From Blautia sp. (lineage in GTDB: Bacteria > Bacillota > Clostridia > Lachnospirales > Lachnospiraceae), in assembly GCA_022769545.1 (NCBI GenBank), contig JALEJS010000013.1, positions 1 to 64,000 on the forward strand: DNA of 64,000 nt, in the 5' to 3' direction. This document shows, one piece after another, positions 16,588-27,816 of the stretch. The notes below the pieces were generated by a model. The model ran no database searches and had not been told where the DNA came from. It saw only the letters and a list, made by a program, of their open reading frames with translations. Position 1 is the first letter of the stretch; every line of letters starts with the position of its first letter. Both the position numbers and the translations under genes were made by a program.

Positions 16588-17202
16588 TTATCCCTGCCTG
16601 CGTATAATTCTTCCGCCTTCATTTCTCAGCCATTGAACTTGTCTCTTATAATCCGGAAGAATCTTTGCAACCTCATTCCAGAATGCTTTTGAATGATTCA
16701 TTTCTTTCCTGTGGCACAACTCATGAACCACAACATAATCGATGACCTCCGGCGGAGTCAGCATTAACAAACAGTTGAAATTAAGATTGCCCTTGCTGCT
16801 GCAGCTCCCCCACCGGGTTTTCTGGTTACGAATAGTGATCCTGCCATAGTTCACCCCTACCTGTTTTGAAAAATAAGCAACCCTGCCGGGTATGTACTCC
16901 AAAGCTTTATCTGCCAGCTTCCGAATCTCCGCATAAGATAATGGTTCTGTCTTTTCTGCTTCGTACAGAGCCTTCTTTTCCCGAAGCTTATTCATAGATT
17001 CCCGAATCCAGCTTTCCTTTTCCTGTAAGATTCGTTCTATCTCTTTTGAGGAAGTGCGCATTGGCGCCCTTACCGTTACTGTCAGGTCAGAATTCACCTG
17101 GATCGCCATCGTTTTTCTGTTTGATCTGATAACTGTAATTTCCACGTGAATCCTCCCAAAAGTAAAATCCGGTTCCCGGGTAGAAAAGTCATTCATTTTC
17201 AT
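16588..17202 (-). CDS. YgjP-type (DUF45) M48-like metallopeptidase
   Basis: 204 residues. The zinc site is VVVHELCHRKEMNHSKAFW: HELCH at 160-164 with a third histidine at 170. Upstream lies the conserved family block RNQKTRWGSCSSKGNLNFN (about 126-144). Physiological substrates of this family are not established; a soluble cytoplasmic location fits, because no signal peptide is visible. The ATG overlaps the stop codon of the preceding REC-domain gene by 4 bp (ATGA), indicating translational coupling. Confidence 0.88.
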   Translation of the reverse strand: MKMNDFSTREPDFTFGRIHVEITVIRSNRKTMAIQVNSDLTVTVRAPMRTSSKEIERILQEKESWIRESMNKLREKKALYEAEKTEPLSYAEIRKLADKALEYIPGRVAYFSKQVGVNYGRITIRNQKTRWGSCSSKGNLNFNCLLMLTPPEVIDYVVVHELCHRKEMNHSKAFWNEVAKILPDYKRQVQWLRNEGGRIIRRQG

Positions 17203-18116
17203 TGGAATTTTATCAGACTTCTCAGCAGACGGGCTGAATTAATCGGTTTTACCAGAAAATCATCCATTCCCACATCTGCTGCCATCTCCCGATTCTCAGG
17301 AACTGCATTTGCTGTAAGGGCTATAATCGGAACATTTGCACGCATCCGATTCGGAAGTTCCCGAATCAGCCTTGTTGACTCATATCCATCCATCACCGGC
17401 ATTTCTATGTCCATTAAAACGAAGTGATAGTAACCGGGTTCTTTTGCCTTCATTGCCGCTACCGCTTCCCTTCCGTCACCAGCCTCCTCCACAATGAAAC
17501 CGTGATCCACGAGAATTTCTTTCATAATCTCACGATTCAGTTTGTTGTCATCCACAATCAGAACCCGTCTTCCCACTAACGCATACACATTCTCCGGTTC
17601 TTCTGCTTCCGACTCCTCATCCACTGCTTCACCAAGCGCAGAGGATATGGTTAATTCCATACTGGAAAGAACCAGCTGCATTTTCTCAAGATATTCCTCA
17701 ACCTTAAAGCCATGCCTCCGGCCAAGTTCCGCATACCCCACCGCACTGTTCAGCTCTGTCCGCAAATCCCTCATTGATTTTCTTTGAAACTCCTCCGATT
17801 TTCTCGCAGTCTCCAGCTCTGTTTCCAGCATATCTATTTTTTCCAGGAGTATCTCCTGACTCGTCTGCGAACTTCGGCCATTGCCATCCTTATACCTGAG
17901 ATCAAACTCAATCGCGACCCCCAATACGTCAAGACATTTTTGAAATTCTTCAAATGTCATGCTTTCTCTGGCAAGCTTTCTGTACAAAGATGACGGAAGC
18001 ATTCCCATCCTTTTTGCAAGCTCTGCTTTCGATATTCCAAGGTCAGAACAAACGACATTAATTGTTTCTGCAGTCTTCATATCATCAGTCCCATCTTCAT
18101 CCGAAATATTAAACAT
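17199..18116 (-). CDS. Unusual response regulator: N-terminal HTH, coiled coil, C-terminal receiver
   Basis: 305 residues. Residues about 14-72 look like an XRE-type helix-turn-helix (LGISKAELAKRMGMLPSSLY). Residues 85-160 are rich in Glu/Lys/Leu and likely form a coiled coil. Residues 183-303 are a complete receiver domain with Asp189/Asp190, phosphoacceptor Asp236 in LMDIEMPVMDG, Thr in ALTA and Lys in FLVKPI. The order is the reverse of normal response regulators, in which REC is N-terminal. A start at Met13 is also possible, since neither ATG has a strong ribosome-binding site. It is 135 bp downstream of the RCC1/kinase operon without a clear terminator between them, so it may belong to that system. 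Confidence 0.85.
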   Translation of the reverse strand: MFNISDEDGTDDMKTAETINVVCSDLGISKAELAKRMGMLPSSLYRKLARESMTFEEFQKCLDVLGVAIEFDLRYKDGNGRSSQTSQEILLEKIDMLETELETARKSEEFQRKSMRDLRTELNSAVGYAELGRRHGFKVEEYLEKMQLVLSSMELTISSALGEAVDEESEAEEPENVYALVGRRVLIVDDNKLNREIMKEILVDHGFIVEEAGDGREAVAAMKAKEPGYYHFVLMDIEMPVMDGYESTRLIRELPNRMRANVPIIALTANAVPENREMAADVGMDDFLVKPINSARLLRSLIKFQ

Positions 18117-18251: not shown

Positions 18252-20072
18252 TTACCATCCGATCTCACCGGCAATCAACAGTGATCCGTCAGACTGAATC
18301 CCAAGTGTACCATTCTCACCGGCTGCAACATATACTACATCCGTCCAGTTCTCCACATCGCACTGCCCCACATCGTTCCGTCCCGTGGCACAGACGGTTC
18401 CGTCCCCTTTCAATCCCACCGTATGGAAGGTTCCGAGGGCAAGCTGCTTCAGTCCTTTCCAGGAAGATGTATTGTACTGTCCAAAATCATACCCCTCCTG
18501 ATCTTTGATAAAGACGGCCGTGCCGTCGGAGCGAAGTGCCCCTATGGCATAATATCCCGGGTAAAGAGCAACAATATTGTCCCAGTTTTCCACCTCTGCA
18601 TCCACCAGTCCTTCCGCTGTCTCGCAGGCGATGGTTCCATCCTCCCGAAGACCCAGAATCCCATAATCTCTCGCTCTGCTGCAGTAAGTTACTACCTGCC
18701 GGATCCCCGTCCAGTTTTCCGCACCGGCTCCTCCTTGCGCTTCTCCGTACAGATAGCGTACACGAACCGTTCCGTCTGTTTTCAGTTCGACGATATAGCT
18801 GGTTACCAGGCCATGACTGCAGGAAAACTGACGGATTCCATCTTCCATGGCATAATAAATATGATTGTCGTCCATCCCCCACAGCGCACCGTTCTTATCC
18901 AGGTAAAGCAGTTCTTCGCATACTGCACCGGAGGAATGTACACATATGATGGACTCAAATCCAATTCCCTCTCCATATTCCACAGCATACGGATACTGGC
19001 TCATGGAATTCATGGAACTGTCTGTACCATACAGATACACCTGATCGTCATCCGCAACACCAATTACCGCAAATTCATCAAATACTTCACTTCTCACATA
19101 AAATATACGGTTCAGATTCTTCATTTCCGAAAGATCGCAATTTCCATAATTCTCAATCACCGGCACGATCTCCCCGTCCTTTTTTACAATTGCCACAGAA
19201 TGTCCGTTATAGCCGGCACCGGTAATACCTGCCACATTATCTGCTTCTTTCACCCTTGAGACAAAATCCGGCTGCGCAAGGCTTGGGGTCATGTTCCTGA
19301 CCACGATCGTTCCGTCACTTCGCACACCAAAACAGTGCATCTGGGAAACATACAGCTGTACAATATCTGTAAACTCGTCGAGTTCCTGAATTGCTTCACT
19401 GTAGGACTGATATACCATCTGCATTCTCACAGTTCCCTGTTCCGTCAGTCCGAAAATAATTCCTCCGTTGCTGGTAATATATTTCACATCCGTCCAACCG
19501 GCATCAATCTCCAGATATTCTCCATACCATCCGATAATCCGGCCGTCCTCCATCAATACAAACGGTGCCTCCGGCTGTGACATGATCGTAACCGCACGAA
19601 TTCGCCCCGTCTGTGAACAGCTGTACACCTGGTCATACTGCTCCAGATACCAGTTTGTCCGAAGACTTCCGTCCGCAGTCAGACCAATCAGTGTATTCCC
19701 TCTGCCGGCAATCGCCGTGATGTCTGTCCAGCGTTCCACATCTTCCTGTTTCTGCACCTCGCCAGCCACCACAATGGTACCGTCATAGCGCAGGCCTGCC
19801 GTAAAATGTTCTCCGGCTGCCACTGCGGCGATGTCTGTCCAGTCGGACACATCCCGCTGCAGATATTCATTGGATCCGAGCGTTTTCACCGTTCCGTCCT
19901 CCATGCGCATTGCACCATGTCTGTCCCCGGACGCATAACTTGTCTGCGGATTCGGATCCACTCTTGTCTGTGTTTCTCCGGAAACTGCTCTCGCATTCAC
20001 CAAAAGTATAATGCCAAGCAGCAAAATAACCTTTTTTGCCCATCTGAAATATCTTTTTTCTGTCATTTCCAT
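18252..20072 (-). CDS. Exported RCC1-repeat-like protein
   Basis: 606 residues from the ATG at 20070-20072, which follows AAGGG by nine bases; a GTG 27 bp upstream is less likely. An N-terminal hydrophobic segment (about 12-30, KVILLLGIILLVNARAVSG) acts as signal peptide or anchor. The rest is built of about 50-residue repeats of the pattern VAAGxxHTxGLxxDGTVxxxGxNxxGQCDVxxWTDVV, the RCC1-like beta-propeller signature. No kinase or enzymatic domain is visible. The repeats match those in the ectodomain of the adjacent kinase gene, 56 bp upstream, so it may be a co-receptor, decoy or ligand for it (inference). Last gene of the six-gene operon. Confidence 0.85.
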   Translation of the reverse strand: MEMTEKRYFRWAKKVILLLGIILLVNARAVSGETQTRVDPNPQTSYASGDRHGAMRMEDGTVKTLGSNEYLQRDVSDWTDIAAVAAGEHFTAGLRYDGTIVVAGEVQKQEDVERWTDITAIAGRGNTLIGLTADGSLRTNWYLEQYDQVYSCSQTGRIRAVTIMSQPEAPFVLMEDGRIIGWYGEYLEIDAGWTDVKYITSNGGIIFGLTEQGTVRMQMVYQSYSEAIQELDEFTDIVQLYVSQMHCFGVRSDGTIVVRNMTPSLAQPDFVSRVKEADNVAGITGAGYNGHSVAIVKKDGEIVPVIENYGNCDLSEMKNLNRIFYVRSEVFDEFAVIGVADDDQVYLYGTDSSMNSMSQYPYAVEYGEGIGFESIICVHSSGAVCEELLYLDKNGALWGMDDNHIYYAMEDGIRQFSCSHGLVTSYIVELKTDGTVRVRYLYGEAQGGAGAENWTGIRQVVTYCSRARDYGILGLREDGTIACETAEGLVDAEVENWDNIVALYPGYYAIGALRSDGTAVFIKDQEGYDFGQYNTSSWKGLKQLALGTFHTVGLKGDGTVCATGRNDVGQCDVENWTDVVYVAAGENGTLGIQSDGSLLIAGEIGW

Positions 20073-20128
20073 ACTGCCGTACCCTTTCCCAAATATCACA
20101 GCGGTATCCGATTACCGTTATATTCTCA

Positions 20129-22876
20129 TCAATATTGCCCCGGCAGGCATCCTGCAATCAGCAAAGCCCCTTCTGACGTAATTCCATAGGACTGAAAATC
20201 TCCGGCAAAGACAGCTGCCACATCCGTCCATCCACTGACCTCACACTGACCGTTTGCATTGGATCCGGTTGCCACTACGGTTCCGTCCTCCTTTCTCCCG
20301 ATCATATGCTCTTTTCCTGCCGCAATCTGCGTGATTCCTTTCCAGTCCAGCATTTCTCTGGAGATCCCGTCATAGATTCCTGCCTTTCCATCTTCATAAA
20401 GTGCAGACAGATTGGACCGGCCCCAGTAAACCAGTTCTGTGATCCGGCTGTTTTCCCGCTGCAGACCGTCTATCCGACTCTCTCCCATACAGACCGTTCC
20501 GTCTTCCAGAAGAGCATATTTGTTTTCTTTTCTGGACTCACACAATTTTCCCACACGCACCGTGTCATACAGCACTTGTTCCGAAGAATCGGCTCCTGCA
20601 GCCAGGATTCTGCCCTCCTGCGTCACTCCGTAAATCAGATTATCCACGACCATAATATTCTGTATCTGCCGCCACTCTTTCACCTTCTCAAATGCACCGC
20701 CCGCCACTGCCACGGTTCCGTCTTCCAGAAGACCTGCCGCTGTCGTTCCGGATGCCGAGATATCTTTCAGTCCCGTCCAGCTGCGCACCTCATCCATTCC
20801 CTGTGCATCCGGTGCAGTGCTGTAGAGAAGCACCGTCCCGTCTTCTTTCAGTCCAATCAGGAAATTATCTCCGGAAACTGCTTTTTTCAGTTTCTTCATC
20901 TGACCAGGCGAAGTACCCGGATGATGGATTCCCTGAAAAATAATCTGTCCTTCTGTCTTCACGATCAGAGAATCCGCACTGGTTTCAATTGCAGATATAT
21001 GGTTCCATTCTTTCATCCGGTCTTCGTACGTTCCCGCCAGCAGTATCTCTCCATCCCGGCGCAGCCCGGCAATATATCCGTCACTCAGACTGATGTCAAT
21101 GATCTGTGTCCATTCCAGGGCTTTCTCCATGTTCTCGCCAATATTCCCGGCAAGCACCACGTTCCCTTCCTCTGTCAGTCCGGCACTGACATCCTTACAG
21201 GCATCGATGACTGCGATCCCGGACCACGTATTCACCTGACACTGACCACAGCTGTCATCTCCCACGGCAGTGACACGGCCGTCTGACAGTCCCAGTGAAT
21301 GATTCGCTCCTGCCGCCACATATTCCATATCCGTCCAGTCAGAAACCTCCAGCTGTCCGTAATCATTATTTCCTGCACCAAGAACCGTTCCGTTTTCTCT
21401 GCACCCGAGGGTATGATTTTCGCCTGCCGAAACCTGAACCACATCTTTCCAGGTTTCCACGCCGCATTTCCCTCCGGTCTGGTCTCCCACTGCAACAACC
21501 GTATGATCGGCTTTCACCCCCACCGTGTGAGTTTGCCCGCTGGAAATACTGACTGCGCCTTCCCAGGCACTGCTGCCAAAATCCAGCATCCCGTAATCAT
21601 TTGTCCCTCTGCCTGTCACTTTTCCATCTTCTATAGTGACAAAATGATATCCGGAAGCAGAAAATGTCTCCCCTTCCGCTGCCGCCGCGGTGATCAGAGG
21701 CATAAGGTCCGCAGGCTCCGGCTCTGCTCCGGCTTCAATATCCGGTGCTGCTGTCGCTGTTATATCAGCTTCTGCTATGTCCGGCGCTGTTGTCTCTGCC
21801 GGTTTCCGGAACACGTAAAAGCCGGCAGACACCGACAGAAGAAGTACTGCCAGAACACCGGCAAGCTTCCCGTAAAATGCGAAGCCTCGGGATCTGCTTT
21901 TGCGATACAGATCCTCATACATCTCCTCCACATTTTGATACCGCTGACGGAGCTGGATTGCCAGACCTTTTTTTATCACATTGTTCAGAGCATCCGGTAC
22001 AGAACATCCCAACTGTGAAAACGTCCGCAGATTATCTTTTGTCAGACGTTCCACAGCGGAAGGAGGAGTCTCTCCCGAAATCATCCGGTACAGCACAGCG
22101 CTGACGGCATAAATATCCGTCCATGGTCCCTGCCGGCCTGCAGACTGATACTGTTCCGGCGGTGCGTAGCCCTGCTTCAGTACAATCGTAAAGGTTCGGC
22201 TTCTGTCATTTCCCGTCATACGGGCAGCACCGAAATCAATCAGCTTCGCATCCCCGGATGGAGTAATCATAATATTATCCGGACTGATGTCCCGATGAAT
22301 GATTCCTGCCCTGTGTACCACTTCCAGTGCCTGCAGCACCGGCCGCATCAGCTCCAGAGCAGTCTCGGCTTCCAGACGTCCGCCCCGGTCATTCAGAAAC
22401 TGCTTCAGCGTCACGCCTTCTACAAATTCCATGACCATGTAAGCCGTCCTGTTTTCGAAGAAAAAATCTTTTACCGACACGATTCCCTCCAGATGATCAA
22501 ACCTGGAAAGACTTCTGGCCTCCTCCATAAACCGTTCCAGACCATGTCTGTAGCCGTCCTCGTTCTCCCCCATCAGCACGGACAGACTGTAATGACCATG
22601 CCCCATCACGGTCCTAGAAGCCATACCAACGGGAAAATATTCTTTGACGGCCACACGTACCTCCAGAATCTGATCCCATCCCACATAGGTAACGCCGAAT
22701 CCGCCTTCCCCGAGCACCTTTCCGATCATATATTTCCCGTTTAAAACATACCCCGGCGGCAGCCACCTGGAATTTCTCTCATAGTTTCGCAGATCAAATC
22801 CGCAGTATGGACAGGCGTTTTCCGTTTTCGTATACTCTCTCATACAGCCCATACATCTCTTTTTCGGCTCAGGCAT
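20129..22876 (-). CDS. Membrane Ser/Thr protein kinase with RCC1-like extracellular repeats
   Basis: 915 residues. A zinc ribbon comes first (C8, C11, C22, C25). The kinase domain (about 48-325) has the glycine loop GEGGFG at 56-61, catalytic Lys78 in VAVKEY, HRDISPDN at 194-201 with the base Asp196, and DFG at 214-216, so it looks active. One membrane helix follows (about 335-356, YGKLAGVLAVLLLSVSAGFY), then an acidic/Ala-Pro linker. The C-terminal 500 residues are RCC1-like propeller repeats (VAAGANHSLGL, GAGNNDYGQLEVSDW). Kinase inside, propeller outside gives a receptor-kinase layout like PASTA kinases but with another sensor. It is 52 bp downstream of a paralogous kinase with a leucine-rich ectodomain. 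Confidence 0.92.
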   Translation of the reverse strand: MPEPKKRCMGCMREYTKTENACPYCGFDLRNYERNSRWLPPGYVLNGKYMIGKVLGEGGFGVTYVGWDQILEVRVAVKEYFPVGMASRTVMGHGHYSLSVLMGENEDGYRHGLERFMEEARSLSRFDHLEGIVSVKDFFFENRTAYMVMEFVEGVTLKQFLNDRGGRLEAETALELMRPVLQALEVVHRAGIIHRDISPDNIMITPSGDAKLIDFGAARMTGNDRSRTFTIVLKQGYAPPEQYQSAGRQGPWTDIYAVSAVLYRMISGETPPSAVERLTKDNLRTFSQLGCSVPDALNNVIKKGLAIQLRQRYQNVEEMYEDLYRKSRSRGFAFYGKLAGVLAVLLLSVSAGFYVFRKPAETTAPDIAEADITATAAPDIEAGAEPEPADLMPLITAAAAEGETFSASGYHFVTIEDGKVTGRGTNDYGMLDFGSSAWEGAVSISSGQTHTVGVKADHTVVAVGDQTGGKCGVETWKDVVQVSAGENHTLGCRENGTVLGAGNNDYGQLEVSDWTDMEYVAAGANHSLGLSDGRVTAVGDDSCGQCQVNTWSGIAVIDACKDVSAGLTEEGNVVLAGNIGENMEKALEWTQIIDISLSDGYIAGLRRDGEILLAGTYEDRMKEWNHISAIETSADSLIVKTEGQIIFQGIHHPGTSPGQMKKLKKAVSGDNFLIGLKEDGTVLLYSTAPDAQGMDEVRSWTGLKDISASGTTAAGLLEDGTVAVAGGAFEKVKEWRQIQNIMVVDNLIYGVTQEGRILAAGADSSEQVLYDTVRVGKLCESRKENKYALLEDGTVCMGESRIDGLQRENSRITELVYWGRSNLSALYEDGKAGIYDGISREMLDWKGITQIAAGKEHMIGRKEDGTVVATGSNANGQCEVSGWTDVAAVFAGDFQSYGITSEGALLIAGCLPGQY

Positions 22877-22928
22877 CTTTGGTTTCCCTCCCCGTTCTTT
22901 TTACAGCGGGCTTTCACACTCCGCATTG

Positions 22929-24617
22929 CTACCTGTTGATCTGTATCCCGTCATCTGTTTCGACAACGATCAACATACGGTTCCTGCCGATATCCAGCAG
23001 TTCCATTCTGTTTTCCCTGCAGTCCAGCATCGTAAGCGCGGTATTGCCGTCCAGATTCAAAGTACTCAGCTGATTGGAGCTGCAGTCCAGCCACTCCAGA
23101 TTTTGGTTTCTGTCCAGTTTCAGTTCCGTCAGCTGGTTTCCATAACAATCCAGTCTTTTCAGATCCGTATTTTCATTCACATCCAGGCTGTCCAGCTGAT
23201 TCCCGGAACAGTCGAGACGCTCCAGAGCGGAAAACAGTTCCACCCCCTGAAGGTTCTGTATGGCTCCATAGCCCGCCATCCCGGAAACATCGATCTCCGT
23301 CACGGAAAGCAGTTCTTCCTGGGTCAGCTGTCCGTCTTTATCCTGATCAATATACTCCTGCACATAGCCGCGAAATCCTTCATCCGGAAAAACAGCCTCA
23401 TCCACGGCATAACACACTTCCGGAACCGATTCCGGTTCCGGCTCTGCTTCCGGCTTCGGCTCTGCTTCCGGCTCCGGCTCTGCTTCCGGCTCCGGCTCTG
23501 TCCGTTCCTCCACTGCAGCCGTATTTTTCCCACCTCCGCGAAGCAGAGATACTCCTGCAAAAAACGCAGGAATCCCTGCCGCAATCATTCCGGCCAAAAC
23601 CGCCAGACACAGATAGCGCTTTCTTTTCTTTTTATGGTTCCGATACAGGTCCTCATACAGCTCCTCTATGCTCTGATAACGCTGCCGCAGCGATAATGCC
23701 AGTCCCTTCTTCAGAATGGCATTGGCAGCACCGGATGGTACGCGAACATCAAACATGGAAAAGGGTGCCAGTGTATCCTTACTCATCCGGTCCATGGCCC
23801 CCGGCGGAAGTTGTCCTGTGATCATCCGGTACATGGTTGCACAGATGGCGTATACATCTGTCCACGGGCCCTGATTTCCTTTGGAAAGATACTGTTCCGG
23901 CGGTGCATATCCATGCTTGAGCACAATCGTAAAAGTATGATTCAAACCATTTCCGGTCATTCTGGCTGCGCCAAAATCAATCAGCTTCGCCTCTTTGGAA
24001 GGTGTGATCATGATGTTGTCCGGGCTGATATCCCGGTGAATAATTCCTGCCTTATGTACCACTTCCAGCGACTGCAGCACCGGCTGCATCAGCTCCAGCA
24101 CCTCGTCTGCCGGAATGAACTCCCCCCGGCTCTTCAGATACTGCTTCAGGGTTACTCCGTCAAGGAACTCCATAACCATATAAGCTGTCTCATTTTCGAA
24201 GAAAAAATCTTTAACGGCAACGATTCCGTCCAGATGATAGAATCTGGACAGGCTCCGTGCTTCCTCCACAAAACGCTTCAGCTCATGCTGATAAATCTCT
24301 CTTTTTTCCCCCGTCAGTGCCAACAGGCTGTAATGATGATCCTCTGTCACCTCTCTGGTGGCCAGGCCGACCGGGAAATATTCCTTGATGGCAACCCGAA
24401 CTTCCAGATTCAGATCCCATCCGATATAGGTAATGCCGAAGCCGCCTTCTCCCAGAACCTTTCCGAGCAGATATTTTCCGTTCAGAATATGCCCGGGCAG
24501 AAGCCATCTGGGGTTTTCTGCACAATTTTCCGGATCAAAACCACAGTAAGGGCAGGGGCCGTTTTTCTCCTTCCGCTCCTTCATACACCCCAGACATAAT
24601 TTTTCCGGATTCAACAT
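22929..24617 (-). CDS. Membrane Ser/Thr protein kinase with leucine-rich-repeat ectodomain
   Basis: 562 residues, start behind AAAGGAG. The first 325 residues align position by position with the neighbouring RCC1 kinase: zinc ribbon (C8, C11, C22, C25), GEGGFG 56-61, Lys78, HRDISPDN 194-201, DFG 214-216. A membrane helix lies at about 335-358. Outside are a Pro-Glu linker (373-400), a Ca-binding-like DQDKDGQLTQEE loop (424-435) and about four 21-residue leucine-rich repeats with a cysteine in each (LERLDCSGNQLDSLDV type, 465-555), similar to InlJ-class LRRs. It is probably a sensor kinase with a protein or glycan ligand; the ligand is unknown. Cytoplasmic targets may include the downstream HTH-REC protein or the AAA+ protein (inference). 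Confidence 0.92.
   Translation of the reverse strand: MLNPEKLCLGCMKERKEKNGPCPYCGFDPENCAENPRWLLPGHILNGKYLLGKVLGEGGFGITYIGWDLNLEVRVAIKEYFPVGLATREVTEDHHYSLLALTGEKREIYQHELKRFVEEARSLSRFYHLDGIVAVKDFFFENETAYMVMEFLDGVTLKQYLKSRGEFIPADEVLELMQPVLQSLEVVHKAGIIHRDISPDNIMITPSKEAKLIDFGAARMTGNGLNHTFTIVLKHGYAPPEQYLSKGNQGPWTDVYAICATMYRMITGQLPPGAMDRMSKDTLAPFSMFDVRVPSGAANAILKKGLALSLRQRYQSIEELYEDLYRNHKKKRKRYLCLAVLAGMIAAGIPAFFAGVSLLRGGGKNTAAVEERTEPEPEAEPEPEAEPKPEAEPEPESVPEVCYAVDEAVFPDEGFRGYVQEYIDQDKDGQLTQEELLSVTEIDVSGMAGYGAIQNLQGVELFSALERLDCSGNQLDSLDVNENTDLKRLDCYGNQLTELKLDRNQNLEWLDCSSNQLSTLNLDGNTALTMLDCRENRMELLDIGRNRMLIVVETDDGIQINR
23431..23501 (-). repeat. In-gene 18-bp tandem repeat encoding the Pro-Glu linker
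   Basis: About four imperfect copies of TCCGGCTCTGCTTCCGGC lie in the coding strand region of the LRR kinase and encode the EPEPEAEPEPEAEPKPEAEP linker between membrane helix and ectodomain. Such repeats change length by slippage in 18-bp steps without breaking the frame. Confidence 0.7.
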
Positions 24618-24659
24618 AATTTGTTACTCCTTTATCTCTGTCAGCAAACATACCGTCAT

Positions 24660-24839
24660 TTATGACAGTATGGAATACTGCATAAATTCATACAGAAGTT
24701 TTGTTCCTTCTGCAATCTCCGCAGGAAGAAGTGCCCGGGCCACCATCTTCTCTTCCGTTTCCGGCTCATCCAGTCTCCGGAGCATGGCATAGTCTCCGTC
24801 AATTCTTTCCACCACATACTCACAGGTAACAAACTCCAT
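24660..24839 (-). CDS. Small protein, DUF3006-like (59 aa)
   Basis: Start ATG at 24837-24839 directly follows AAGGGGGAAGGAAAA, a strong ribosome-binding site; stop TAA at 24660-24662. The protein starts MEFVTCEYVVERIDGDYAML and later has ALLPAEIAEGTKL. The pattern of a short beta strand, RIDGDYA, and LPxxIxEG resembles DUF3006, a family of tiny beta-barrel proteins of unknown role. It lies 14 bp after the acyltransferase gene and 42 bp before the LRR kinase gene, so it is almost certainly co-transcribed. It has no signal peptide. Confidence 0.7.
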   Translation of the reverse strand: MEFVTCEYVVERIDGDYAMLRRLDEPETEEKMVARALLPAEIAEGTKLLYEFMQYSILS

Positions 24840-24853
24840 TTTTCCTTCCCCCT

Positions 24854-26119
24854 TTATCGATTTCTGACAATTTTATACAATTCTTCGGCAGCAAGTCTTG
24901 TTTTTGCCACAACATCCATTCCCTCTGCCGGAAAACAGTAATACAGTATTTTTCTGTCTCCGATACAGATCATATCTCCGATCTCATACCAGAAATAATC
25001 CGAGTACAGGCTGTAAGAAGCCTCCGGCGACAGCCTGACCTTAAGCTTTCCGTCACATCCGGTCAGCGAAAACCCGTCTCTGTCGTGGTGCAGACGGCCG
25101 GTTCCCACACGGTAAATGCATTTCATATCCTTCATCATGCAGATTGTCACTTCGATATCCAGACAATAGCTTCCTTCCAGAAGCTCCTGCCGCACACATT
25201 CCCTTTCCCACTGATACCAGTCCGGAATGTGTGTAAAGTATACATCTCCCTCATCTGCGACAAGCTCACCATACTCCGAAAGTTCCCACGTCTTCCCGCA
25301 CTTTTTGCAGGTAAGATGAATTCCCGTGCCTTCCATGCTTCCTTCCTCCAGACAGTGGGGACATTTGTAGAGGACGCGGTTCAGGCCATCTGCCCGGAAC
25401 GGTTCCCGGATCGAAACCTGATTTTCCTTCTGCCAGCGAAAATGATCAAACGTAAAATGTTTTTTCAATATATCATTCAGTTCCTCCACACTTTTCTCCC
25501 GGATTTCCTCCGGAGTGAGAATGTAATCCATTCTGGCAGAAACGTCTGTGCTTCTTACCTGAAGGTTGTTGTAGAGCGGATCCCGGGCAAACGCGCCAAA
25601 GGTCCGGATCATCACCACCGGAACCCCCAGTATTTTCAGACATTTTCCCAGTGATTCCGGCAGCGGTGTCGCCGTGCCGTCAAAGCTGTAGCTGGCTTCC
25701 GGGTACATCAACACAGAGCTTTTCAGTTCCCGTACCGCATAAACCATATCCCGCACCAGTGTGATATCTGTCATGAATTTCTTCGTCGGAATACAGCCCA
25801 GACGCCTCATCAGCCAGTCCTTTCCCACAAATCCATCGGACGTACAGACAATGTGAAAAGGCCTTGGGTACAGCAGCCGGAATGCAATTTTGAGATCCAG
25901 AAAACTGGAATGGTTCATCAGAAACAGCGCCGGCTCCGCCTTGTCCAGTTTTTCCATCTCATATGTATCATACCGGAAATTTACTTTTTTCAGTTCCGGT
26001 CCGGACAGCAGCCTCACAAGTGTTCGAAAAAACAGCCCCTGCTTCTGAGGCGGAATATGCTTCGGTACCGGCAGTTTCATGACTTCTTCATACGGCAGAT
26101 CCCTGACTTTGATTTTCAT
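24854..26119 (-). CDS. PlsC-type lysophospholipid acyltransferase with C-terminal zinc ribbon
   Basis: 421 residues. The acyltransferase motif ALFLMNHSSFLDLKIAF carries the catalytic NHxxxxD-type arrangement (about 65-81); a second block MYPEASYSFDG resembles the PlsC EGTR-region. Unusually, after the acyltransferase domain there is a zinc ribbon with CPHC and CKKC (about 268-300), and then a further beta-rich region of about 120 residues (VDVAKT etc. to the end). Ordinary 1-acylglycerol-3-phosphate acyltransferases are about 240 residues and lack this ribbon. It sits inside the kinase operon, so it may acylate something other than a standard phospholipid precursor (inference). Confidence 0.85.
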   Translation of the reverse strand: MKIKVRDLPYEEVMKLPVPKHIPPQKQGLFFRTLVRLLSGPELKKVNFRYDTYEMEKLDKAEPALFLMNHSSFLDLKIAFRLLYPRPFHIVCTSDGFVGKDWLMRRLGCIPTKKFMTDITLVRDMVYAVRELKSSVLMYPEASYSFDGTATPLPESLGKCLKILGVPVVMIRTFGAFARDPLYNNLQVRSTDVSARMDYILTPEEIREKSVEELNDILKKHFTFDHFRWQKENQVSIREPFRADGLNRVLYKCPHCLEEGSMEGTGIHLTCKKCGKTWELSEYGELVADEGDVYFTHIPDWYQWERECVRQELLEGSYCLDIEVTICMMKDMKCIYRVGTGRLHHDRDGFSLTGCDGKLKVRLSPEASYSLYSDYFWYEIGDMICIGDRKILYYCFPAEGMDVVAKTRLAAEELYKIVRNR

Positions 26120-26177
26120 ACATTTTCTCCCTCTTTTTCATAACAGGAAATCATTTCTTCTCATGAAACAGACCAGG

Positions 26178-27665
26178 CTAAGAAATCAGAAGATTTCTGA
26201 CCATTTCCGAATCAAATACCACCTGTGATACATGGTTTACCTCAATCTGATACAGCGCATTTGCCGCAATATGTTCTGCTGCCTGTTCCAGATCGCGGAT
26301 TCCTGTCGTTCCAGCACATGTCTCGATCACGGTATCCAGTGCCTCCCTGGACACAATGCATTCTTCCTCTCTCATACTCATACGTTTCAGCACCTTTGGA
26401 AGAGCAAACTTCGAAAAGATTATTTTCTTTTCCTCTGCTGTGTAGTCCGGAATATCGATCACTGCAAAACGGGACATCAAGGGTGCACTGATCTGCTCCT
26501 TATCGTTTGCCGTAGCAATGGGATAAACCCCTACCGTCGGAATCATACATTCCATATAATTATCGGTAAAGCCAAGATTGTCCAAAAGTGTCAGAAGAAC
26601 ATCTGCCGGATTTCCGTTTCCTTTTCCGGATGCTGCTTTATCCAGCTCATTGATGATAAAAACCAGATTGGATTCTCCTGCCATGGAAAACGCTTCCATA
26701 ATGATACCCGGTTTTGCATTTGCATAAATGCGGGAGCTTCCGGTTAGCTGCTCCGGGTCGTTGATGGAACTCATATCCAGCGTTGTCCATGGAAGCTTTA
26801 AAATCCTGGCAACTGCGTAGGCAATCTGTGATTTACCGGTTCCCGCAGGTCCCACCAGCAGAAGTCCATACGCCGGAAGTGTATGCGTACGGTTGATCTG
26901 TATGATCGTTTCCATGATTCTCTGTTTTACCCGCTCCAGTCCATACAATTCTTCATCCAGGATTCTACGTGCCTCCTGGGGATCGATGGATTCAAAATAA
27001 TTGCTCTTCCACTGGATATTCATCATAATGGACAGTGCTCTCTGTGCATGACGCCGCTCTTCCGGAGACACCTCGTGGGAACGGGCAACTGCAAGGTTCC
27101 GGCGCGCCCACAGCCGGATATTATCCGGCATGGTCCTGCCCGCACAGGTCATAAAATCTGTAATACTCTGAAGGCTGGTAAGCTTCATTTCATCCCCGGT
27201 TTCTTCCTGTTCATCCTCCTCTGTCTCGTCTGCAAGTGCGCTGCTGGCCAGAAGACGCTCAATCATAAACTGGAGAAATCCATCTTCCGCAGACAGCTTT
27301 GTTCCTCCTCCGAATGCAATTTCCCGTATTTTATAAACAGCATAGCCGTCCGGTGTATTTGCTCCGGACAGACGGACTTTGATGTGATTTTCTCCAAGCC
27401 ATTTCAGAAGACTGACAAATCGGGCATCGATTTTCAGAATATCTGCACTGACCGTTCCGTCTTCCTCTTCAAACTCAAATGCGGTACGTTTTACCGGATT
27501 GGTAAAAATTCCGCTGGAATGATGCTTCCACTCACGCACACGATTGTCCAGTACCATAATCGGTTTCTCCGGTGATGTGTCTGACTCGTCTGACCGAAAA
27601 GTGGTATAGGTACATTCCGGCTGGTTTTTTTTATCTGGTGTGCTTTTAAAGTCAAATACTGGCAT
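26178..27665 (-). CDS. Lon-like AAA+ ATPase without protease domain
   Basis: 495 residues, start behind AGAAGGAG. The N-terminal 230 residues show no family that I recognise, with an acidic stretch (148-160). The AAA+ module follows: LYGLERVKQRIMETI (240-254) as in Lon, Walker A GPAGTGKS (272-279), Walker B LVFIINELDK (334-343), sensor 1 PIATANDKE, and the arginine finger/sensor 2 region FAVIDIPDYTAEEK to GTTGIRDLEQA. It ends there: the Ser-Lys protease domain of Lon is absent. It is probably a remodelling or unfolding ATPase working on a partner, and is the first gene of the six-gene kinase operon. Confidence 0.88.
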   Translation of the reverse strand: MPVFDFKSTPDKKNQPECTYTTFRSDESDTSPEKPIMVLDNRVREWKHHSSGIFTNPVKRTAFEFEEEDGTVSADILKIDARFVSLLKWLGENHIKVRLSGANTPDGYAVYKIREIAFGGGTKLSAEDGFLQFMIERLLASSALADETEEDEQEETGDEMKLTSLQSITDFMTCAGRTMPDNIRLWARRNLAVARSHEVSPEERRHAQRALSIMMNIQWKSNYFESIDPQEARRILDEELYGLERVKQRIMETIIQINRTHTLPAYGLLLVGPAGTGKSQIAYAVARILKLPWTTLDMSSINDPEQLTGSSRIYANAKPGIIMEAFSMAGESNLVFIINELDKAASGKGNGNPADVLLTLLDNLGFTDNYMECMIPTVGVYPIATANDKEQISAPLMSRFAVIDIPDYTAEEKKIIFSKFALPKVLKRMSMREEECIVSREALDTVIETCAGTTGIRDLEQAAEHIAANALYQIEVNHVSQVVFDSEMVRNLLIS

Positions 27666-27727: not shown

Positions 27728-27736
27728 ATTATATCA
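27728..27736 (-). promoter_or_regulatory. Extended -10 promoter for the AAA+/kinase operon
   Basis: Minus strand TGATATAAT, an extended -10 element about 60 bp upstream of the AAA+ start codon. The -35 region is only a T-tract. The preceding terminator (27772-27816) shows that a new transcript must begin here. Confidence 0.55.
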
Positions 27737-27771: not shown

Positions 27772-27816
27772 AAAAAAAGCTCCGGTCCACCTTTTCATGG
27801 ATTTTCGGAGCTTTTT
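27772..27816 (-). terminator. Terminator of the ECF transporter gene
   Basis: AAAGCTCCG/CGGAGCTTT stem (27776-27784 with 27806-27814) around a loop of about 21 nt, followed on the minus strand by TTTTTTTG. It separates the ECF gene from the AAA+/kinase operon. Confidence 0.75.

Follow-up and report, generated by a model that had tools for sequence, protein, structure and literature searches.

Within a 64-kb stretch of Blautia DNA (64,000 nucleotides of contig JALEJS010000013.1, hereafter the window, meaning the whole stretch analysed), six genes follow one another on the minus strand. We found that these genes are not one conserved system, with one partial exception, locus L124. The stretch is probably a lineage-specific gene string rather than a conserved six-gene machine, and its last three genes, which belong together, would form a receptor trio derived from the PpkA-like, ectodomain-swapping kinase arrays of Lachnospiraceae-type Clostridia. 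The trio consists of two membrane kinases, K_LRR and K_RCC1, and an exported propeller protein encoded by open reading frame 6 (ORF6); the genes ahead of it encode an AAA+ ATPase, a PlsC-type acyltransferase and a DUF3006-like protein.

A previous interpretation made from the letters alone (the sequence-only reading) had proposed one module coupling the kinases to an AAA+ remodeller and an acyltransferase, and had suggested a search for co-occurrence of the six families across genomes. When this search was run, the families were not kept together, an outcome which that reading itself had taken to speak against a single system: AAA+, PlsC and the kinases were each found in other contexts. Its interpretation as a whole is partly supported. 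AAA+ orthologues of 73-87% identity were present in 40 of 60 genus genomes, including its own, and AAA+ was matched in 82 of 299 family genomes (81 of 298 genera). Outside the own genome, 88 AAA+ places were listed and 80 fetched, with 8 at contig ends or in split matches omitted; locus L137 gave no AAA+ ORF, and 79 neighbourhoods were usable. Neither PlsC nor DUF3006 was found beside AAA+ in any of the 79 loci. The commonest neighbour families occurred in 14, 11 and 10 of them, scattered in place and strand, and kinases, both distant, lay near AAA+ in two (L124 and L134). At one locus (L129, 4662-7964), an AAA+ gene of 60% identity adjoins relatives of an ECF transporter (51%) and of YgjP (45%), the two genes that flank the six-gene run in the window. 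This one case hints that AAA+ was resident at the spot and that the genes after it arrived later.

Similar results were obtained for the other genes. PlsC was detected in 1 of 64 genus genomes, namely its own, with one weak match in a further search, and was matched in 46 of 299 family genomes when weak matches down to 24% identity were included. Forty PlsC places were fetched, three of which lacked a PlsC ORF by BLAST; AAA+, DUF3006 or a kinase was found at 0 of the 37 usable loci, and a kinase profile search gave no match in the 40 fetched. Conversely, relatives of AAA+, PlsC and DUF3006 were found in 0 of 80 named kinase loci (BLASTP, 1e-4). AAA+ and PlsC are each an independent family, and we regard AAA+, PlsC and DUF3006 as unrelated passengers, a common transcript being the most that would tie them to the kinases. 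PlsC relatives of 30-33% identity at L186, L187 and G165:C28 are ORFs of about 886-946 amino acids with a large extra part.

The two kinases led to a different kind of neighbourhood. PpkA is the closest solved kinase by sequence and, in a comparison with the PDB, by fold, and the two are PpkA-type on these grounds. Each carries a four-cysteine N-terminal ribbon (CxxC...CxxC) and one strong hydrophobic helix (mean hydropathy about 2.3), and retains the G-loop (GEGGFG), the VA[IV]K lysine, HRD-N (HRDISPDN) and DFG. In the own genome, 14 candidates were scored, out of a list with 9 more, and all 14 matched the RCC1 kinase; contig C13 carries 11 of them, the window two and C11 one. The C13 region (about 15051-48821; L260 and L261) combines 11 zinc-ribbon kinases, four of them with Sel1 ectodomains, with five FHA proteins (one vWA-FHA), two PP2C phosphatases and one further kinase-like protein. 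Inside this array lie an ORF of 142 amino acids resembling GDSL proteins, below the Pfam cut-off (L260:15251-15679), and an opposite-strand ORF of 122 amino acids that by eye resembles the start of a transposase (L260:17911-18279); they are possibly remnants of array turnover.

To characterize the company kept by this family, we took as named kinase loci the best 80 of 576, which is not a random selection (L273 being the same contig as L262). FHA or PP2C genes were present in 52 of the 80, compared with 3 of 120 similarly sized controls (2/80 for AAA+ loci and 1/40 for PlsC loci); both were present in 33, and at least two kinases occurred in 46 of the 78 loci with a recognised kinase. Among 160 full kinase domains, a few of them duplicates, 145 carried the ribbon and 117 had one transmembrane segment plus an ectodomain of at least 60 amino acids. 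Ectodomains were scanned in 60 of 120 ectodomain kinases (118 listed plus the window's two), giving LRR_4 in 6, Sel1, RCC1_2 and NADase_transloc (F5/8-type) in 5 each, and DUF5050 and C-type lectin in 4 each. Kinases of the same kind, with 40-46% identity, also occur far outside Clostridia, in Azospirillum plasmid records (H2-H7) and in Competibacter-type metagenome-assembled genomes (L307, L313). A literature search, whose coverage left out most subscription journals, returned no description of these arrays or of bacterial RCC1-ectodomain kinases among the matches listed.

In a tree of 142 kinase domains, K_LRR and K_RCC1 are sisters (support 99), and the pair nests with three RCC1 kinases, from L265, L266 and L268 (98), all of which adjoin FHA and PP2C genes. 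Because the relatives of K_LRR are RCC1 kinases, the simplest reading of the tree is that K_LRR is a duplicate of K_RCC1 that has lost the RCC1 ectodomain and gained an LRR one. Over the whole tree the ectodomain labels require at least 30 changes versus a shuffled mean of 43.2, a figure that is coarse because 96 of the 142 kinases are pooled as 'other'; ectodomain types thus appear clustered on the tree yet turning over. The closest relative found for the K_LRR ectodomain (45% over 141 amino acids) was an LRR ORF not recognised as a kinase, on a kinase contig (L327:9842-11227), and such an ORF is a possible donor type for the swap.

In the case of ORF6, the best match was the ectodomain of a kinase at L267 (2567-5809; 37% over 592 amino acids), followed by those of the later RCC1 kinases of L265 (11331-14357, 32%) and L266 (12965-16159, 31%); identity to its neighbour K_RCC1 was only 27%. 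A small tree joined ORF6 with L267b at 100/99, and K_RCC1 with the kinases that come first at L265, L266 and L268, again at 100/99. By these alignments and trees, the trio is similar to loci of the L265-L268 type, where RCC1 kinases stand in tandem; in the window, the first of the two types would have been duplicated and given a new ectodomain, and the later type occurs without its kinase domain. At L266, one more kinase lies between the two RCC1 kinases. ORF6 would accordingly be a kinase-less receptor, which may have lost a kinase domain or never have had one. Its N-terminus is a hydrophobic segment, and translation probably starts at ATG 20072, preceded by GGGAAAGGG, rather than at GTG 20099, giving 606 amino acids.

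We reasoned that the trio could work as follows. Outside the cell, a propeller or LRR domain would bind a protein or cell-wall ligand, which would draw the kinases together; the activated kinases would phosphorylate threonine residues inside the cell, FHA proteins from the C13 hub might bind the phosphothreonine, and PP2C would reset the signal. The exported propeller could act in solution, either as a co-receptor or as a decoy. Tying the trio to the C13 hub is guesswork, because the window itself yielded neither FHA nor PP2C genes.

Several observations weigh against deriving the trio from such arrays and separating it from the genes before it. The 64-kb window showed neither FHA nor PP2C genes, 28 of the 80 kinase loci likewise have neither (some on short contigs), and the C13 kinases fall in subclades other than that of the window pair. 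The 142-row tree was built by a quick method and carries support from the Shimodaira-Hasegawa-like approximate likelihood ratio test (SH-aLRT) only; in the small tree, support at the deep forks is low (75/75), and the branches of ORF6 and L267a are long. The two AAA+ loci with kinases leave a small opening for a link between AAA+ and kinases: the AAA+ gene of L134 has a PknB-like kinase upstream, about 2.4 kb away, and at L124 (9834-15096) AAA+ is followed, two to three ORFs downstream, by a same-strand PP2C-like ORF (by eye) and a Ser/Thr kinase of 760 amino acids and 27% identity, the only close downstream kinase among the 79 loci. Room is also left for genuine co-regulation of all six genes, since the gaps are tight and no terminator was found after the AAA+ gene.

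These last points are what favours the view that all six genes form a real signalling system, put together recently in this lineage, in which the kinases control AAA+ and PlsC and thereby remodel or acylate membrane targets: the genes share a strand and lie 14 to 58 bp apart, the run is preceded by a terminator, and L124 offers a partial parallel. We consider such a system unlikely, given the absence of PlsC and DUF3006 from all 79 AAA+ loci, of AAA+, DUF3006 and kinases from all 37 PlsC loci and of relatives of the three passengers from all 80 kinase loci, together with the near-confinement of PlsC to a single genome of the genus. That the trio is a decaying remnant of a kinase array without present function is very unlikely: the array partners FHA and PP2C are missing from the window and one member lacks a kinase domain, but none of the six ORFs is interrupted, most of them have purine-rich ribosome-binding sites, and the kinases keep the catalytic motifs tested. 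Slimmer still is the chance that the kinases regulate a variant of the type VII secretion system (T7SS), as is thought for kinase, PP2C and FHA components in some of the variants T7SSc to T7SSj; PMC11217815 places kinase, PP2C, vWA or FHA genes in several such loci and the C13 hub holds the same kinds of components, but no WXG100 protein was found in the own genome (0/1), where a miss is possible because the genome is 91% complete. An anti-phage defence island of kinase plus ATPase is least credible of all, for although the kinases match PADLOC models such as PD-T4-6 and mad6 and AAA+ matches DolB (E value 9e-11), the kinases match dozens of PADLOC kinase models as well as general kinase families, carry outside sensor domains and have relatives with FHA/PP2C neighbours, and the acyltransferase, the DUF3006-like protein and the exported propeller have no PADLOC match at an E value of 0.1.

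The receptor trio derived from kinase arrays remains the preferred reading, and it carries a wider, more tentative one. Lachnospiraceae-type Clostridia may possess a bacterial equivalent of the receptor-kinase repertoire of plants, with a zinc-ribbon, PpkA-type chassis in tandem arrays (11 kinases matched on one contig), freely exchanged ectodomains (RCC1, LRR, Sel1, F5/8-type and C-type lectin), secreted receptors without a kinase domain, of which ORF6 would be one, and a common FHA/PP2C/vWA hub by which they are all read out. To call the locus a six-gene machine would mislead, because its parts do not travel together. What it does point to is a large collection of PpkA-type receptor kinases among gut Clostridia, and its three adjacent genes include both a candidate ectodomain swap and a candidate receptor that lacks a kinase. 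It thereby opens to test which external signals these bacteria perceive and whether a single FHA hub takes input from many receptors.

The AAA+ gene was also considered on its own. Its product matches TIGR00763 with an E value of 5e-53, and the AAA part of Lon covers residues of about 152-483; the whole-protein Lon score is 180.7 bits against a cut-off of 608, the match ends at residue 477 of 495, and no protease domain was found in the protein. The Walker B motif reads I-N-E-L-D-K (Asn339-Glu340) in all 80 aligned sequences, the window's included, where the usual motif has Asp in place of this Asn. In 80 selected genomes (19 from the genus, 61 from outside; identities compiled by hand), identity to the window copy was 81-87% within the genus and 67-87% outside, with 31 of the 61 outside copies reaching the genus minimum; for RecA the values were 87-95% and 76-87%, and 1 of 61 did so. 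AAA+ identity thus depends little on kinship. Horizontal movement of the gene is likely on this basis, since its neighbourhoods also change from locus to locus and Roseburia sp. 831b carries a copy on a plasmid (79% identity). Two findings count against mobility: the rank correlation with RecA is 0.30 outside the genus and 0.50 inside, and copies from within the genus keep a higher identity than those from beyond it (p 4e-5). Several genomes (L127, L130, L131, L134 and L136) have an additional AAA+ copy that is more divergent (about 55-63%), in longer ORFs of up to more than 700 amino acids.

Two further ideas about AAA+ were rejected. An own conserved promoter was not borne out: by a crude test with guessed starts, 14 of 70 upstream regions had a TATAAT no more than 100 bases away. 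A similarly crude test gave 12 of 70 with a terminator up to 80 bases downstream. As a phage gene, AAA+ gave 0 matches in phages at an E value of 1e-40 and 0 in viral contigs, with patterns drawn from one protein. PHROGs families of ATPase type, and unknown ones, matched AAA+; there was no match for PlsC, DUF3006 or the exported propeller. A single-sequence structure model of AAA+ was too poor for a fold (predicted local distance difference test score, 33.5).

The features of the run are listed in Table 1. As a description of the DNA, the sequence-only reading was confirmed. All six ORFs are open on the minus strand, with gaps of 58, 14, 42, 52 and 29 bp in gene order; the kinases are receptor-like, with intact catalytic motifs and one membrane helix followed by outside LRR or RCC1 repeats, as supported by Pfam, motifs and models; and the labels of a protease-less Lon-like ATPase and a zinc-ribbon PlsC protein agree with the domain matches. 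Its terminator of the preceding gene, ahead of the promoter, was recognised by eye as a hairpin plus T-run (about 27812-27772); it is absent from the list of the scan, which had a loop limit of 8. The single front promoter stood in part, with a perfect -10 box (TATAAT, 27733-27728) and an unrecognisable -35, and is missing from the promoter scan list. Co-transcription of the six genes is plausible, because the gap after the AAA+ gene shows no terminator. The shared direction is weak evidence here, because 38 of the 50 window ORFs called at 100 amino acids or more lie on the minus strand. Downstream of the run, an HTH-REC gene (17199-18116) was found in 4 of 64 genus genomes, including its own; linkage to it was tried and rejected, the flanks of three relatives (up to 1.5 kb a side) having no YgjP or RCC1 match. 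In two relatives this gene adjoins genes that by eye resemble those for solute-binding proteins.

Table 1. The six-gene run and the signals ahead of it, in gene order followed by the signals
Feature	Coordinates	Strand	Remarks
Lon-type AAA+ ATPase without protease domain, 495 amino acids	26178..27665	-	First of the run; Pfam/NCBIfam
PlsC-type acyltransferase with C-terminal Cys-rich (zinc-ribbon-like) segment, 421 amino acids	24854..26119	-	PF01553, E value 2.6e-9
DUF3006-like protein, 59 amino acids	24660..24839	-	PF11213, E value 1.6e-4; its 22.3 bits fall short of the curated cut-off (32.3)
K_LRR: zinc ribbon, PpkA-type kinase, one transmembrane segment, LRR ectodomain (LRR_4), 562 amino acids	22929..24617	-	
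K_RCC1: zinc ribbon, PpkA-type kinase, one transmembrane segment, RCC1-type propeller ectodomain (RCC1_2), 915 amino acids	20129..22876	-	
ORF6, exported RCC1-type propeller protein (RCC1_2), kinase domain absent, 615 amino acids	18252..20099	-	
-10 box TATAAT ahead of the AAA+ gene; -35 unclear	27728..27733	-	
Intrinsic terminator of the preceding ECF-type transporter gene	27772..27812	-	By eye

We compared these proteins with known systems. AAA+ shares the AAA+ module with Lon protease and differs from it in the absent protease domain and the Asn for the Walker B Asp; the MoxR-vWA-propeller ternary system is also unlike it (bpMoxR, PF20030, 16 bits versus 27). Against the PD-T4-6/MADS defence kinases, the window kinases scored 128.8 and 151.7 bits versus 460 (NF047741), with many general kinase matches as well. 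They resemble the PASTA kinases PknB, StkP and PrkC in having a Hanks-type kinase, one transmembrane segment and outside repeats, but gave 0 PASTA matches in Pfam and scores of 170.1 and 190.3 versus a cut-off of 450 (NF033483). The first propeller of K_RCC1 (residues 404-642) is modelled with the fold of BLIP-II and of the UVR8/RCC1 propellers, at about 22% identity and, unlike these, as a kinase ectodomain; no match is claimed past model residue about 651, a part that the comparison barely covered. With the T7SSc to T7SSj loci, the C13 hub shares kinds of parts; the difference is that no WXG100 protein was found in the own genome.

The closest parallel is the threonine phosphorylation pathway of the type VI secretion system (T6SS), in which, according to PMC5995506 and PMC3224232, PpkA phosphorylates, PppA reverses and Fha responds, PpkA being a membrane kinase with an outside vWA sensor. 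The window kinases share the PpkA-type kinase domain (by sequence and fold), the layout of a membrane kinase with an outside sensor domain and, in their relatives, the clustering of kinase, PP2C and FHA genes. They differ in having RCC1 or LRR ectodomains and no vWA, an N-terminal zinc ribbon and many kinases per genome, with PP2C and FHA found on C13 of the same genome and not in the window. The likeness is an analogy; membership in the T6SS pathway is not claimed, because the locus lacks recognisable FHA and PP2C genes and the ectodomain differs.

Plant receptor-like kinases and receptor-like proteins put many ectodomains on one kinase chassis and include kinase-less receptors. The window trio is bacterial, and homology with them is not claimed, but it may work in an analogous way.

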